A DNA stretch of 34,519 bases, taken from positions 1 through 34,519 of IMG/VR virus record IMGVR_UViG_3300025072_000018, one strand, 5' to 3'. The position numbers were made by a program, and so were the translations under genes. Of this stretch, positions 2,891 to 18,266 are shown in pieces (positions within the stretch are counted from its first letter, which is position 1; every line of letters starts with the position of its first letter). The notes beneath the pieces were generated by a model that was not told the DNA's origin, searched no databases, and was given only the letters and a program-made list of their open reading frames with translations. The DNA is from a virus.

Positions 2891-5800
2891 ATGGCAAATG
2901 AATGCAATATCATGGATATGTTTGTTGGTGATTTATTGCCTCAAATCTATTGTAAGAAAGTAACATTAGAAAACCATCCAGACGACCCAGAAAAGAAATC
3001 TAAAGTAACTCTTTTACTAGAAATGTATGAAGAAAGAGATAAGTTAAATAATGCTGGTTGGTTGACTAATATAAATATTCCTGGTGGTACTAATATTTTA
3101 GATTCGCTTTATATTAATTATCACATGATTACCGACAGCACTAATCTTGAAAAATTAAAACCCAACACAGATCCAGAATTTAATAGTACGGGCAATCTTT
3201 ATGTCTTAAAACAAAACAAACCTGATTGGAAATATATTCAAGGTTTACACTCGAAGCTGTGTAAGTTTTGTACTGCGAAAATTCAAGTCGCAGCTTCTTC
3301 TTTATTAGGTGATTTCAAAAAAGGCGATGTTCTGAGTGGCCTTGGTGGAAAAATGAGAGAAGAGTATAAAAACGGAAAATGGTATTATATTATTCCGTTC
3401 AAGCTTCTCCTCCCGTGGGAATTTGACTTCACCCCTCAAAATATGGGAATTATACTTTACAGCTACTTGGATATGGCGACTTTATTTCCAGAAAAAGTTA
3501 ATGATCCCTATGTACAGAGTTTGAGCCTCGAAGGCCCAGTTAACACAGAGATTATATTTGATGGCGGCAACCTAGCAACGACAAGACAAGCTTTTATAGC
3601 ACCCGGAGGCCTTCTTTGGGAAGGCGCGGTTCACTATCACGGAGACAGCAACCCGGCCCCTGATGGATATAAAGGCTGGATGGCTGGCGATCGCCACAGG
3701 GGAGGCACGGATCAACTTAAATTACAGCTTCTAGAAGTTCCAAATACCAAGATAACAGACTTCAGAGATTCTTCTATAATTATGCCGAATAGCCAGGAAG
3801 ATAATGTTCTTGGAATGGGTAAAGACTCCATAATAGGAGTTGGGCCAAATTATGAAAAAGCAGAAGCAATCATTGGCGGTATTTTAAGTCCCTTCCAGAA
3901 AGAAAAGAAGAAGGATTTTATTATTGATAACGATGATGAATATTCTAAATTATATCTCTCAAGAGACAGAAAAAATAATGCTCATGGCATGTTTTTTATT
4001 AATTTTAAAAATTTATTACAGAACAACTCTTCCCTTTATCCTATTTTGGGCAAGAAATATCAACAATATGGTGTCTCGACTGAAGCCGAGACATTACAAG
4101 AAATTTTACAAGAATCTAAAATACTTGAGTTAAGAGTATATCGTGATAGAGTTAGGCCTGTCAACTTGAGACAACCATATAAGAAGTTTTCAGATGGTGA
4201 AATGTTTGAGGAGCCATCTCGGTTGATTGGCACAATCTTTGATATAAATAATTACAAAACACCTAGAGAGAACTACGAAGCCGGGAAAACATATATTAAA
4301 GAAATCAGTTTGTCTTCTAAAGTTGAGTCTTACATGAACAGATATTTTGTTTTTTCTGATTACGAAGTTGGCTCTTACGATGCCGGCTTATATCAATACC
4401 GTGTTGAACTAGATTTTGTTGATGGAACAAAAGTTTTTATCAACAAACTTATGGATGAGTTAAGACAGATTAAACTTGAGATGGAACAATATTATGAATT
4501 CGCGATATCAGGAAGAAAAACTAACCTAGATTTTTCGTATAAAATGAGTTATTCTTCTGAAAGCGGTACAAAAGTACACTTCAAGCCTTATTACGATGAT
4601 ACTTATAAATCTTTTAATGATGAGTTTCTTGTCGATGCTACATATAATTTTGCTACAAAATTAAACATAGTACCCATATGGCAACGCGCCGCCGAATGGA
4701 TAATAAAAACGTATTTATACTTTATAGAGCAAGAAGCCCACGGCCTATCTATATTATCTTGGGGACTTAATTTAGCTAATATGATAAGTCCGACAAGCGG
4801 CACACCAGAGGGAATTAATTTTTGTATAAGGTTAATAGATTCGATAGTCACAAAAATTGATAGTATAATTGGTTCAACAAAAACGAGCAGTAACAATAAT
4901 TTAAATGATAAAAGTTCTGTTGACGACCAATCATATTTACCCGTCCACGCTTATGAATCCAAAGTCAACACGAATAACAGTGTGATATACGAAAAACATT
5001 CTTTTGATAATGCTGGGGAAGTATTCGACGCAACAATACATGAGGGTATATACGCAGATTTTCTTTCGGTTGGCACAGAAATTCCACTAGTTTTTAAAGG
5101 CTTAAGAGGCGTAACTCCGGAGTATTATAAGAATAGGGTGCTTCTCGAATCGGCTAAATTCTTCTCTACTGGTAAATCAATGGAGAGCCTTTACGAAACT
5201 TATACTCCGCCTTTCGCCACAAACACCCAAGATAGTATAATAAAAAATGCATTTGGGTACCTAACTCCTTCGGAGGTTAAAATATCTGATTCGGCTAAAA
5301 TAAATAAAACATTTAATTTTGTACAGAAATCTTTTAGCAACGCTGCTTATACTGCTTTGGAGCCCGGCAACTTAACAAAATTTTCTTTGCTTTCGAAAAC
5401 TTTTTTAAATCACAATAATTATAATAGCTTGATGGTCAGTTTAATAAACTATGGCTTAGACAAAGAAAGCGATAGAAATGTTGATGTAGTGGCCCCGCCA
5501 TTTGCTTTATCTGGTGACGCATCAGATTCGGAAAAAACCTACTTTCAACTGGATAGTGCCTATAGAAAGCTCTTTGAGGAATTAAATGTAACGTTACATG
5601 ATGTTAATAAACATGATAGTTTTTTTAATCCTCGCCGTCCAAAATCAGAAGATCCTAAAATTCCAGTGCACCCTCTAAAGAGGGAATTCTTCTCGGAAGC
5701 ACTCGGCTTATCTACTTTTTATTTTAGAGACTGTCTTTCAAACGAAAATCAAAAAATTATAAGTTTCCCGCCGGGAACTACACAGCCATATCCTTATAGT

Positions 5801-12797: not shown

Positions 12798-13346
12798 ATG
12801 ATTTTTGGTTTAGACATAAGCACCAGCATAACTGGCATTACTATTTTGGATGATGAGGGCGAAATCATCTTAAACGAAGCTTGGGATACAAGAAGATTTA
12901 AGAATTTTTTTGAAAAAGCTGATTTTATAAAAGAAAAAATAATTACTTTGCCCAAAAGACTTGGCCCCAACATTATAAAGGCAAAATGGGTTGACGCAAT
13001 TTTTATAGAACAATCTTTGCAGTCATTTAGATCTGGATTTTCGTCGGCCAAGACACTTTCAGCTTTATCACGTTTTAATGGCCTCGTCTCATGGCTACTT
13101 TATAACCATCTATATACAGAGCCACAATATATTGCTGCGACATCAGCAAGAAAAATATGCGGGATTAAAGTACCAAGGGGCGAAAAGGCAAAACAAGTTG
13201 TTATAAAACATATTGTTGACAACGTACCAGATGTTCTTATAGAATATACTAAGTACAACAACCCGAAACCTGAATGCTACGATAAGGCTGATAGTTGGGT
13301 TGTTGCTAGAGCCGGCTGGTTGCAATGTCAAAAAACACCAAAATAA
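12798..13346 (+). CDS. RuvC-like Holliday junction resolvase / RNase H-fold nuclease
   Basis: 182 residues. The N-terminus GLDISTSITG carries the first catalytic Asp (D6) of the RuvC/RNase H fold. E71 in the strand IFIEQS is the second acidic residue, and D162/D165 in the segment YDKADSWVVA fit the C-terminal acidic pair. The length is close to that of bacterial RuvC. By family it would cut branched DNA, resolving recombination intermediates or trimming branches before packaging. It is a substitute, not a sequence match, for T4 endonuclease VII. No Shine-Dalgarno sequence precedes the ATG; a TATAAT lies seven bases upstream. Its end overlaps the primase gene by 22 bases. Cleavage specificity is not shown by the sequence. 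Confidence 0.8.
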   Translation: MIFGLDISTSITGITILDDEGEIILNEAWDTRRFKNFFEKADFIKEKIITLPKRLGPNIIKAKWVDAIFIEQSLQSFRSGFSSAKTLSALSRFNGLVSWLLYNHLYTEPQYIAATSARKICGIKVPRGEKAKQVVIKHIVDNVPDVLIEYTKYNNPKPECYDKADSWVVARAGWLQCQKTPK

Positions 13347-14269
13347 ATATTTTAAAGAATACACTAGGCGAATATTATAGAAGCAATTCAGAGTATCTTT
13401 TTTATTGTCCTCGTTGTGAACATCACAAGCGCAAATTATCAATCAATATTGAAAAAAATATGTTTAAGTGCTGGGTTTGTGATTGGTCTGGCAGGAATAT
13501 TTATCGTATTATTCGACGATATGGTTCTTTCCAGGATCGCAACGAGTGGAAGAGGTTTTTTGATCAAATAGAGATTGAGAATTTTGCTGAAAAGCTCTTT
13601 GGGAAAGAAGAGGTGGAAAAGGATCCCACCCTGCAGCTACCAGAAGGGTTTGTTTCACTCGTCAATAAAAATTTGCCACCGACGTCGCAGTACCCTTTAA
13701 ATTATTTACAGAGTAGAAATGTAACAAAAACAGATATTATTAAATGGAAGATGGGATATTGTTTCGACGGTCAATATGGAGGCAGAATAATTTTACCTTC
13801 TTTCGACCTAGACGGAAAAATTAATTATTTTATTGCCAGGTCTTATTCCCCAAATACTTGGAAAAAATATATGAACCCACCGGTATCGAAAAATATTATT
13901 TTTAATCATTTATATTTGGATTTTGATGAAGACATAATATTAGTTGAAGGCGTTTTTGACGCTATTGTAGCGGGTGACAACACGATACCTCTCTTGGGCT
14001 CGACTCTAAGAGAAAAACACAAGCTTTTTCAAGAAATTGTTCGCAATGATACTCCAATTTATATTGCTTTGGACACCGATGCCACGAAAAAAGAACTTGA
14101 AATTATTAAGTTACTTTTGAAATATGATATTGAAATTTATAAAATTGATATTTCGCCCTATAAAGATGTTGGGGAGATGCCCAAATCTGTTTTTCTAGAG
14201 AAAAAACAAGAAGCAGCATTTATCAATTCCACGGACTATTTATTGAGAACAATCGGAGAAATTAAATAA
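13325..14269 (+). CDS. DNA primase (zinc-binding and Toprim regions)
   Basis: 314 residues. A four-cysteine zinc-binding module sits at C28, C31, C49 and C52 (CPRC and CWVC). A Toprim-like region follows, with the catalytic Glu at E208 in ILVEGVFDAI and the DxD metal site at D250/D252 in IALDTDA. That order is typical of phage primases and DnaG relatives, which make RNA primers for lagging-strand synthesis. No helicase domain is attached, so a separate helicase is expected elsewhere in the genome. The start overlaps the RuvC-like gene by 22 bases, which suggests translational coupling. A gene of unknown function follows after one base. Confidence 0.88.
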   Translation: MSKNTKINILKNTLGEYYRSNSEYLFYCPRCEHHKRKLSINIEKNMFKCWVCDWSGRNIYRIIRRYGSFQDRNEWKRFFDQIEIENFAEKLFGKEEVEKDPTLQLPEGFVSLVNKNLPPTSQYPLNYLQSRNVTKTDIIKWKMGYCFDGQYGGRIILPSFDLDGKINYFIARSYSPNTWKKYMNPPVSKNIIFNHLYLDFDEDIILVEGVFDAIVAGDNTIPLLGSTLREKHKLFQEIVRNDTPIYIALDTDATKKELEIIKLLLKYDIEIYKIDISPYKDVGEMPKSVFLEKKQEAAFINSTDYLLRTIGEIK

Positions 14270-14270
14270 T

Positions 14271-14810
14271 ATGCTTCAAAAGTTGAATGAAGAAATCACC
14301 GCAGCCGCTATCGCTACAGCAATTATAACTGCCATTACCGAATTCGATATTTTACCAGAATTAGATGTCGATGTGACATCATGGCCGGATGGATCTGAGG
14401 GCGCACTAGAAGTAAAGTCCACCGAGGGTCTCAGAGTACGAAATCAGAACGTAGAAGCGCTATTAAAACAAACTAATGAATTACTACAAAATATGCAAGA
14501 TATTTTAACAGTCCAAGTATCAAAGTTGGAAGATATGGATGTAAGTATTGATGGGAATACTGCCATGGTCGCCCAAACTGCCGGCGGCTCTATTTCGGGT
14601 GCAGATATCGAGGCAGCCCAGACAACTTATGGTCGCGCCGCTCCTCTGTCCATCACCACTACCAAAAAAGATACTCCTGAGAAAGCTCCAGAGAAAGAAG
14701 ATCTTAAAGAAAATAAAAGATCAGAAATCGATTATTGCGATTTAGAAAAAGTTGTGATAGAAGAGCTTAAAACGGTGTTATTAGAATTCTACAATGATGT
14801 AAAGAGATAA
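14271..14810 (+). CDS. Hypothetical protein with coiled-coil centre and charged linker
   Basis: 179 residues; ATG one base after the primase stop, with GGAG ten bases upstream inside the primase gene. I do not recognise the family. Residues 1-25 form an Ala/Ile-rich helix (AAAIATAIITAI), residues 55-85 a probable coiled coil, residues 125-150 a Lys/Glu/Pro-rich linker, and the end an acidic helix. The helical, low-complexity build resembles a structural or scaffold protein more than a replication enzyme, despite its place between primase and nuclease genes. Its stop is followed by a 74-base gap that holds a promoter for the next gene. Confidence 0.65.
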   Translation: MLQKLNEEITAAAIATAIITAITEFDILPELDVDVTSWPDGSEGALEVKSTEGLRVRNQNVEALLKQTNELLQNMQDILTVQVSKLEDMDVSIDGNTAMVAQTAGGSISGADIEAAQTTYGRAAPLSITTTKKDTPEKAPEKEDLKENKRSEIDYCDLEKVVIEELKTVLLEFYNDVKR

Positions 14811-14873: not shown

Positions 14874-14884
14874 AAGAGGTATTG

Positions 14885-17800
14885 ATGAAGTTTGCACACA
14901 TAGCAGACACCCACATTAGAAATTTAAAATATCATAAGGAATATCGTGTTGTGTTTGACAGACTCTACAAGAGCCTGCGTCAGCAATCAGTTGATTATAT
15001 TATTCATTGTGGGGATATTGCACACACCAAAACACAATTAAGTCCTGAGTTTGTGGATATGTGTTCTGGTTTTTTAAAAAATCTAGCAGATATTGCCCCA
15101 ACATATATTATCTTGGGTAACCATGACGGAAATTTAAGAAACTCTAGTCGTCAAGATGCGCTCACACCAATAATACAAGCATTAAATCACAAAAATCTTT
15201 TTTTGTTGAAGGACTCCGGAGAAACTCAGCTAAACGACGAGTTCACCCTCAATGTTTTATCGGTTTTCGACAGAAAAAATTGGCAACCTCCTGTTAACTC
15301 GGACAAAATTAATATTGCTTTGTATCATGGCTCAATTAGTGGTGTAAAAACCGATACTGGCTGGAAAATGGAGAACGGAGAAAATGATATTAATATTTTT
15401 GGTAATTTTGACTATGGTTTTCTTGGGGACATACACAAAACCAATCAAACCATTGACAAAAAGGGAAAGATTCGTTATCCGGGCTCCATGATACAACAGA
15501 ACCACGGGGAAACAAACGACAAGGGTTTTCTAATATGGGATATTGAAGACAAAGACTCTTTTACATGCGACCACCATGTTTTAAAAAACCCCAAACCTTT
15601 TTTGACGATCAAATTAACCCCCAAGGGCAGATTTCCAAACAAACTTAAGGTGCAAAAGGGCGCTAGAATACGCCTGGTATCTGAAAACAACCTACCTATA
15701 GGTGTTGTACGTAAAGCCGTTGACGCTGCGAAGTCGAGGTTTAAACCAGGATCCGTAACTTACTTGAACCGCGCCGCCGGGGAGAGAAAAAACATTGAAG
15801 AATTCACCGATCTTCTGAAACAAGAAGATTTAAGAGATATAGCAGTACAAGAAGAATTAATTTCTGAATATTTGGTTGACTATCAACCAGAAGAAGATAT
15901 ACTTAAAAAAATATATGAAGTTAACAAAAAATATAATGCGGTTGCTGAGCGTGAAGAGGAAGTCCAGCGCAATATTAATTGGAAATTGAAAAAATTAGAA
16001 TGGAGCAATTTATTTAATTATGGTGAAGATAATTCAATTGATTTTGGAAATCTAAATGGAATTGTTGGTGTGCTTGGAAAGAACTTTTCTGGGAAATCAA
16101 GTATTATCGATAGTTTGTTATACACAGTTTATAATGCTACTTCTAAAAACAATCGAAAAACAATTAATTTAATTAATCAAGATAAAGAAACATGTCGAGG
16201 ATATGTTGAAATTGATGTTGGGTCGAAAACTTATAAAATTGAAAGAACAAGTACTAAATATAAAAAGAAATTAAAGGGCAAAGAAACTCTAGAAGCTAGA
16301 ACAGATATTGAGTTTACTGTAACTGATAATATCGCCAGAACTACTCACTCCCTTAACGGCATCACGCGAGTAGAAACTGATAAAAATATTAGAAAAATAT
16401 TTGGCACAATAGAAGACTTTCTTATGACCTCCATGGCCAGTCAGTTAGATTCTCTAGCATTTATTAATGAGGGTTCAACTCGAAGAAAGGAGATTCTTGC
16501 AAAATTTTTGGATTTGGAATTATTTGATCGAAAATTTAAAATGATAAGAGAAGATTCGGCAGATCTCAAGGGCGCCCTCCGCCGCTTGTCCGACAGGGAC
16601 TACGATCAAGAACTAAAGGAAACTAGAGAAGATCTTGCACGCTCGGAAACAGAATTATCTTTAAAAAATAGAAAGTTTAGTGAACTGGAAGAGAATATTG
16701 GTCAAAAATCAGGAGACCTGGAAACAACAAGTGATCAAATTAATTCCATTCCAGCAGAAATAATTGATATTAGAAATATTAAAAAGCAGATTAAAAAAAG
16801 CCAAGAAGAACTAGATTCCCTTCTAGAAGATAACAAGGGTAAGCAAGGAGAGCTTGAATGTGAGAAGAAATTTCTTAAGAAGATCGAAAATTTTGTTGAT
16901 AACTTCGACGTTACGTCTTTTACTGATAAAAAACAGATTGTCGAGGAACATAAACGAAAAATTTTACAAATTGAAAAAGATCTTTCGCAACACGAAAAAG
17001 AAAAACAAGTAAATGATAGAAAAATAGAATATTTGAAAAAAATACCATGTAGCCACGCCGCGCGGGCCCGCTGCTTGTTTGTTAAAGATGCTAGAACCGC
17101 TATCGATGACACTGCAAGAGTTAAAATATCTGCAAACCAGATGAGTTTAAATAGAAAAACATTAACTAAGAAAATAGAGGATTTAAATCCCAATAAGATT
17201 GATGAATACTTAGAAAAATATCAACTGATCTCAGTGAAACGTTCAGAACAAAAGAACAAAATAACCCAATTGGAGCTTGATTACGAAAGAAACAAAACAA
17301 AGATTCTCCGTCTCCAGGCCAATTTAAAAACCTTAAGCGCGAAAGAGCAAGAATACGAAGAAAACAAAGAGACAATTGAAAATTTAGAAAATTTATTAGT
17401 GAAGAAAGATGATCTTTTTGAAAACCTAAGAAAACTAGAAAATGCACACAAAAAAGACAAATTGAAGTTGATGGAACTATATAAGTCTAATGGAATATTG
17501 GAGCAGAAATTTAATGAAATCGACAAGCAGAGGCAGGATTTTTATGATCTCGAAAATGAATTCACAATGGCTGATTTATTTATGCGATGCATGCATCCTA
17601 ACGGCATATCTTATGATATTATTAAAAGGCGATTACCAGTTATTAATGACGAGATTTCTAAAATTTTAACAAATATAGTTGATTTTGAAGTTTTCTTCGA
17701 GAATGATGAAAAAAAATTAGATATATCGATTAAGCACCCAAAACATGATCCGCGCCCAATCGAAATGGGTTCGGGGGCAGAAAAAACTATTGCAGCTATG

Positions 17801-18040
17801 GCAATTCGCTTGGCTCTGTTAAATGTTACAACCCTACCAAAGGGTGATATATTTATTCTGGATGAGCCAGGTACAGCACTAGACGCTGAAAACATGGAAG
17901 GGTTTGTTCGAATTCTTGAAATGATAAAAATCCAGTTCAAGACAGTATTGTTAATCTCTCATTTGGATAATTTAAAAGATGTCGTTGACCAGCAGCTGCT
18001 TATTGAAAAAATAGATGGTTTTGCGTATGTAAATGAATAA
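14885..18040 (+). CDS. SbcD-SbcC (Mre11-Rad50 type) single-chain fusion nuclease/ATPase
   Basis: 1051 residues. The N-terminal 340 are an Mre11/SbcD-type metallophosphoesterase: D8/H10 in ADTH, HCGD at 41-44, GNHD at 78-81, then YHGS and GDIHK. The C-terminal part is a Rad50/SbcC ATPase: Walker A GKNFSGKS at 398-405, long coiled-coil arms, a Cys pair C722/C730 at the arm tip, signature GSGAEK from 962, Walker B DIFILDEPG at 988-996, and an H-loop LLISH. In T4 these are separate proteins, gp47 and gp46, which process DNA ends for recombination-dependent replication and host DNA breakdown. ATG at 14885 is preferred to TTG at 14882 because AAGAGG sits five bases before it. It has its own promoter and leader hairpin. 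Confidence 0.9.
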   Translation: MKFAHIADTHIRNLKYHKEYRVVFDRLYKSLRQQSVDYIIHCGDIAHTKTQLSPEFVDMCSGFLKNLADIAPTYIILGNHDGNLRNSSRQDALTPIIQALNHKNLFLLKDSGETQLNDEFTLNVLSVFDRKNWQPPVNSDKINIALYHGSISGVKTDTGWKMENGENDINIFGNFDYGFLGDIHKTNQTIDKKGKIRYPGSMIQQNHGETNDKGFLIWDIEDKDSFTCDHHVLKNPKPFLTIKLTPKGRFPNKLKVQKGARIRLVSENNLPIGVVRKAVDAAKSRFKPGSVTYLNRAAGERKNIEEFTDLLKQEDLRDIAVQEELISEYLVDYQPEEDILKKIYEVNKKYNAVAEREEEVQRNINWKLKKLEWSNLFNYGEDNSIDFGNLNGIVGVLGKNFSGKSSIIDSLLYTVYNATSKNNRKTINLINQDKETCRGYVEIDVGSKTYKIERTSTKYKKKLKGKETLEARTDIEFTVTDNIARTTHSLNGITRVETDKNIRKIFGTIEDFLMTSMASQLDSLAFINEGSTRRKEILAKFLDLELFDRKFKMIREDSADLKGALRRLSDRDYDQELKETREDLARSETELSLKNRKFSELEENIGQKSGDLETTSDQINSIPAEIIDIRNIKKQIKKSQEELDSLLEDNKGKQGELECEKKFLKKIENFVDNFDVTSFTDKKQIVEEHKRKILQIEKDLSQHEKEKQVNDRKIEYLKKIPCSHAARARCLFVKDARTAIDDTARVKISANQMSLNRKTLTKKIEDLNPNKIDEYLEKYQLISVKRSEQKNKITQLELDYERNKTKILRLQANLKTLSAKEQEYEENKETIENLENLLVKKDDLFENLRKLENAHKKDKLKLMELYKSNGILEQKFNEIDKQRQDFYDLENEFTMADLFMRCMHPNGISYDIIKRRLPVINDEISKILTNIVDFEVFFENDEKKLDISIKHPKHDPRPIEMGSGAEKTIAAMAIRLALLNVTTLPKGDIFILDEPGTALDAENMEGFVRILEMIKIQFKTVLLISHLDNLKDVVDQQLLIEKIDGFAYVNE

Positions 18041-18068: not shown

Positions 18069-18266
18069 ATGATGACAGCAGTAAGAGCATGGTTAGATAA
18101 ACATTTAGAAAGATTTATATCCCGTAAATTTTTAGCATGGGGTACAGCAACTTATTTGGTTGCAAGTAATTCACTAACAAGTGAAGATTGGGTTGCAGTT
18201 ACTTTGGCTTATATTGGTTCTGAAGCACTTGTTGATATTGCAGCTCGCTGGAAACACGGAAGTTGA
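18069..18266 (+). CDS. Small membrane protein, holin candidate
   Basis: 65 residues behind a perfect AGGAGGT ribosome binding site, the strongest in the window. An amphipathic, charged N-terminus (WLDKHLERFISRKF) is followed by hydrophobic segments at about residues 22-34 and 41-56 and a basic end. The segment AYIGSEALVDIAARW resembles small phage holin-like proteins. Two further small membrane genes follow at once, which supports a lysis cassette. A holin would make the inner membrane lesion that lets the endolysin out; no endolysin is visible in the window. A second in-frame ATG directly follows the first. The function is inferred. Confidence 0.6.
   Translation: MMTAVRAWLDKHLERFISRKFLAWGTATYLVASNSLTSEDWVAVTLAYIGSEALVDIAARWKHGS

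Follow-up and report, generated by a model that had tools for sequence, protein, structure and literature searches.

The window analysed in this work, a stretch of 34,519 nucleotides of viral DNA, contains a gene (positions 14885-18040) that, judged from its sequence, codes for an entire SbcD/Mre11 nuclease and, after it, an entire SbcC/Rad50 ATPase. This phage Mre11-Rad50 fusion is real, yet it is common in a marine phage group, and viral fusions of this kind were described in 2011. The original prediction of a single-chain SbcD-SbcC with the motifs of both active sites in one open frame was borne out, with one conservative change (GHxH to GDIH), but the novelty of the arrangement was not. 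Mre11/Rad50 fusions were reported by Yoshida, Claverie and Ogata in 2011 in Mimivirus R555, bacteria, plasmids, eukaryotes and a Bacillus phage (PMC3175470), relatives of the window protein are encoded in at least 411 viral stretches, and the fold search yielded further viral proteins of fusion length.

The fused sbcD-sbcC (mre11-rad50) gene, delineated from the reading frame, Pfam and PHROG matches and relatives, is one uninterrupted open reading frame on the + strand, the strand also of its parts and of the primase and RuvC-like neighbours described below. It runs from the ATG at 14885 to the TAA ending at 18040 (14885-18037 plus the stop codon) and specifies 1051 amino acids. The sequence AGAGG lies immediately 5' of this ATG, and the TTG at 14882 is a further in-frame start. 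In Pfam, Metallophos matched residues 1-161 (1.5e-11) and SMC_N matched residues 368-1036 with a score under the curated cut-off, and PHROG 77 (SbcC-like) matched residues 140-1051 (3.4e-47). Sequence matches in the PDB were to Mre11/SbcD for the first third of the protein and to Rad50/SbcC for the remainder, the nuclease being N-terminal and the ATPase following in the same frame.

The fusion was modelled by AF2 as a single chain from 57 sequences (mean pLDDT 83.4, pTM 0.49), and the domain boundaries given here are our reading of the AF2 secondary-structure string. The model has the order nuclease, cap, helix-loop-helix, linker, Rad50 head, coil and second head lobe, with a low-confidence loop at residues 298-311; at this overall pTM the model does not fix how nuclease and head lie with respect to each other. 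Fold matches in the PDB were the Mre11-Rad50 complexes of Chaetomium, E. coli, Methanocaldococcus and human.

Pfam, motif alignments and AF2 assign the Mre11/SbcD phosphoesterase domain to residues 1-232 (14885-15580). All five phosphoesterase motifs of two-metal binding are there: DTH (8-10), GDIAH (43-47), GNHD (78-81), H148 and GDIH (181-184). The sole catalytic departure is in the last motif, where one ligand is Asp, not His (Asp182, GDIH versus GHxH); the aligned residue of Pyrococcus Mre11 is His206. A capping domain with beta-beta-alpha-beta topology was predicted by AF2 at residues 239-295 (15599-15769), with a PDB fold match to 7dog (SbcD nuclease and capping domain).

Beyond the cap, AF2 placed two helices (residues 319-333 and 337-356, 15839-15952) at the site of the helix-loop-helix with which Mre11 binds the Rad50 coil at its root. 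In view of this model and of the position of the T. maritima helix-loop-helix, residues 319-356 are likely the Rad50-binding element. Alignments and AF2 place next to it a linker of about 8 residues (357-364) with an RNxxW motif at residues 362-366 (together 15953-15982). The predicted 1:1 ratio of the two enzymes follows from the fusion; the separate Mre11-Rad50 complex is 2:2 anyway. The predicted change in how the nuclease sites pair found no support, since the helix-loop-helix and the short linker agree with how the separate complex is arranged, as was argued in 2011 from the T. maritima complex for a helix-loop-helix and a linker of 9-12 residues (PMC3175470).

All Rad50/SbcC ATPase motifs were found by alignments and AF2, in two lobes parted by a coiled coil (residues 545-903, 16517-17593; AF2). 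The N-terminal lobe of the head (residues 365-544, 15977-16516) carries Walker A GKNFSGKS (398-405, 16076-16099) and Q520, and the C-terminal lobe (residues 904-1051, 17594-18037) carries the signature SGAEK (963-967), Walker B ILDE (991-994), the D-loop residue D1000 and the H-loop residue H1026. Two cysteines at the apex of the coiled coil, C722 and C730 (17048-17074; alignment, AF2), form a putative hook with the spacing CX7C, as compared with CXXC of the zinc hook. The spacing drifts within the family: distant relatives have CX2C, forms near the window CX6C and CX7C. No description of this drift was found in the literature searched. With Asp182 and the wider hook, metal use or zinc binding could be different.

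In the alignment of 57 sequences, conservation of the RN..W residues was 90% or more, and the split phage proteins that were aligned lack the motif; no description of such a linker motif kept across fusions was found in the literature searched. We consider it rather unlikely that RNxxW is a docking element which locks the nuclease to the ATPase in cis and which, together with GDIH and the widened hook, defines a distinct single-chain Mre11-Rad50. If it were true, this phage family would have a mechanistically distinct Mre11-Rad50, in which the linker is no passive tether.

The proximity and the common order of sbcD and sbcC in phages with split genes could suggest that an assembly or sequencing error merged two adjacent genes, but the conservation of the fusion refutes this explanation, whose probability we regard as negligible. 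Three contigs from other metagenome records had 99.98-100% DNA identity to the window over the shared stretch, including the fusion gene, and relatives at 82, 67, 55, 40 and 30% identity were all fused. A full-length in-frame fusion was present in 113 of the 133 fetched loci with a match, at identities reaching as low as about 30%, which is far beyond chance; the two viral scans had a few contigs in common, which were counted twice. Moreover, T4, S-SSM7, a Moorella phage and Twort have at least one small ORF separating sbcD from sbcC, so that a simple frameshift there would not yield this product. In pairwise comparisons with three relatives, the proportion of changed sites was much higher for synonymous than for replacement sites in both halves and at the junction, all of which are under strong purifying selection.

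Most of the other 20 loci were cut by contig ends. They also included two distant phages with separate genes (BSP36 and AG-345-L05), two separate SbcD-type matches in MAGs, a 735 kb huge phage whose fused protein aligned only partly, a locus with an inserted ORF (L040) and one at an N run in a MAG scaffold (L126). L040 belongs to LR756508.1, a huge phage of 484 kb. Its fusion gene is interrupted just past the final nuclease motif by an ORF of 305 aa (4665-5579), in which zinc-ribbon-like repeats were seen by eye and Pfam matched a TnsA-like endonuclease domain (5.8e-6); this is probably a homing endonuclease or intron insertion. In L126 (WOR-3 MAG chromosome CP070664.1) a phage-type fusion fragment ends at the N run beside unrelated coding sequence, and this locus is likely a scaffold chimera. 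No full-length fusion was among the matches in the plasmid collection. The bacterial genome scan gave 12 loci, each of them on a MAG contig; those with the full-length fusion probably lie on contigs of phages, as indicated by the short contigs and, for L128 and L130, by a primase neighbour.

T4 gp47/gp46 and their cyanophage equivalents are homologous to the nuclease and the ATPase, and the fusion likely shares their part in end resection and recombination-dependent replication. The T4 genes are separate, as had been stated in the original prediction, and so are those of cyanophages, Twort and others. T4 and S-SSM7 have two genes with small ORFs in between, whereas the window has a single ORF; the T4 and cyanophage nucleases have GHxH where the window has GDIH, and their SbcC proteins are shorter (560 and 574 aa). 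SbcD and SbcC of Herelleviridae (Twort, BSP36) belong to the same module with a primase nearby, but the genes are split. In contrast, WWT39521.1 of Microcystis phage Mel-JY01 (annotated "AAA domain containing protein"), on which phage no publication was found, is fused, is 31% identical to the window protein over its full length and has a primase upstream; its hook is CX2C, compared with CX7C in the window. The best viral fold match was a 1379-aa Tupanvirus protein, followed by proteins of Harvfovirus, Yasminevirus, Terrestrivirus and Catovirus, all of them giant-virus proteins of fusion length, and then by Tenacibaculum phages PTm1 and pT24 and Listeria phage LMTA-57, whose 1009-aa protein in the fold library is also of fusion length.

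Comparison with the R555-type fusions and their marine (GOS) homologues, made by description, showed the same domain order, GDxxH and GDxH variants and helix-loop-helix with a short linker, as well as neighbouring primases of the Twort/SPO1 type and a marine viral source. The differences are in length (1351 aa for R555, 1051 aa for the window fusion), in the carrier (giant virus versus tailed phage) and in the CX7C hook of the window. R555 homologues are abundant in marine metagenomes (GOS), mostly viral and probably from phages, and their scaffolds carry primases such as Twort ORF023 (PMC3175470). As the primase of the window matches Twort ORF023 and its linker is near the described length, the window fusion appears to be a full-length member of the kind reported there. 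Trees were built from the fusions and eight split phage pairs. In the ATPase tree a branch with 99/99 support parted the fusions from the split phage forms, and a single fused group was weakly supported in the nuclease tree (73/82). These topologies are consistent with one old fusion within the sampled set; several fusions across viruses and cells were inferred previously (PMC3175470). A closer likeness to the R555 type than to canonical cellular proteins may be suggested by the top viral fold match (Tupanvirus) and the common GDxH, the trees covering fusions and split phage pairs.

Upstream of the fusion are a RuvC-like Holliday junction resolvase gene (12798-13346; PHROG 159, synteny) and a gene for a DnaG-type primase like Twort ORF023 (13325-14269; PHROG 47, Twort match, synteny). 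Both are conserved neighbours, the primase in 78 of 81 loci and the RuvC-like gene in 66 of 81; terminase and portal genes lie downstream. The Flavobacterium immuto phages have the primase in common, with no SbcCD annotated beside it. The window being a 34.5 kb fragment, the absence of a second copy was judged from relatives: contigs of up to 191 kb had no separate full-length SbcC/SbcD pair alongside the fusion. Across 19 records no long SbcC/SbcD pair was seen other than the fusion (for L040, the two parts of it), the exception being an extra SbcC-like match in the 735 kb huge phage, and the few further phosphoesterase matches were short separate ORFs.

The position in a replication module with primase and RuvC-like genes and the single copy point to the role of T4 gp46/gp47. 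We are confident that this gene provides, in a single chain, the sole Mre11-Rad50 enzyme of the phage; by analogy its role is likely end resection for recombination-dependent replication. Sequence and model show two complete catalytic modules joined through the Mre11 helix-loop-helix and the conserved linker of about 8 residues; two chains would dimerise by their nuclease domains and ATP-engaged heads, and the cysteine hooks would join the tips of the coiled coils. ATP cycling may then let the nuclease process DNA ends or hairpins, and the processed ends may serve repair and recombination-dependent replication, and possibly also the degradation of host DNA, as with T4 gp46/gp47. The fusion itself appears to be an old, stable trait of a large group of marine phages, similar in kind to Mimivirus R555.

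A different function would follow if Asp182 rendered the nuclease half inactive or altered and the protein were mainly an ATP-driven DNA tether. GHxH is replaced by GDIH in every fusion examined, and R555 carries the same His206-to-Asp change (PMC3175470). Metal binding is possible with Asp, however, the remaining metal ligands are invariant or nearly so in the alignment, purifying selection on the nuclease domain is strong and GDxH also occurs in a split T5-like phage protein, and we find this function improbable. Pairs of an SMC-like ATPase and a nuclease are known in defence systems, and the fusion might accordingly be a defence-type or anti-defence nuclease and no replication or recombination enzyme. 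Such a role is more improbable still: the fusion has a conserved place beside the primase and RuvC-like genes, it is the sole SbcCD pair found in most records scanned, and it best matches phage and viral proteins of recombination or repair.

The general view of Mre11-Rad50 is unchanged by the window fusion. The present data extend a little-studied fusion from few partial marine sequences to more than 100 fetched loci, nearly all of which share a consistent phage gene neighbourhood, and single-chain proteins of this size could suit structural work on a tethered complex.

Three minor observations concern the surroundings of the fusion and a huge phage that carries it. Between primase and fusion lies a 179-aa ORF (14271-14810) without a Pfam or PHROG match, which among the loci scanned was found only in a near-identical copy, the slot being variable in relatives. 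Directly 3' of the fusion, a 65-aa ORF (18069-18266) without a Pfam match, holin-like by eye, was kept in 70 of 81 loci. The 735 kb phage LR756501.1 (W02) encodes, beside its 1202-aa fusion, a second SbcC-like match (670999-672753) in which in-frame TAG and TAA codons were counted, possibly reflecting recoding or a split gene.
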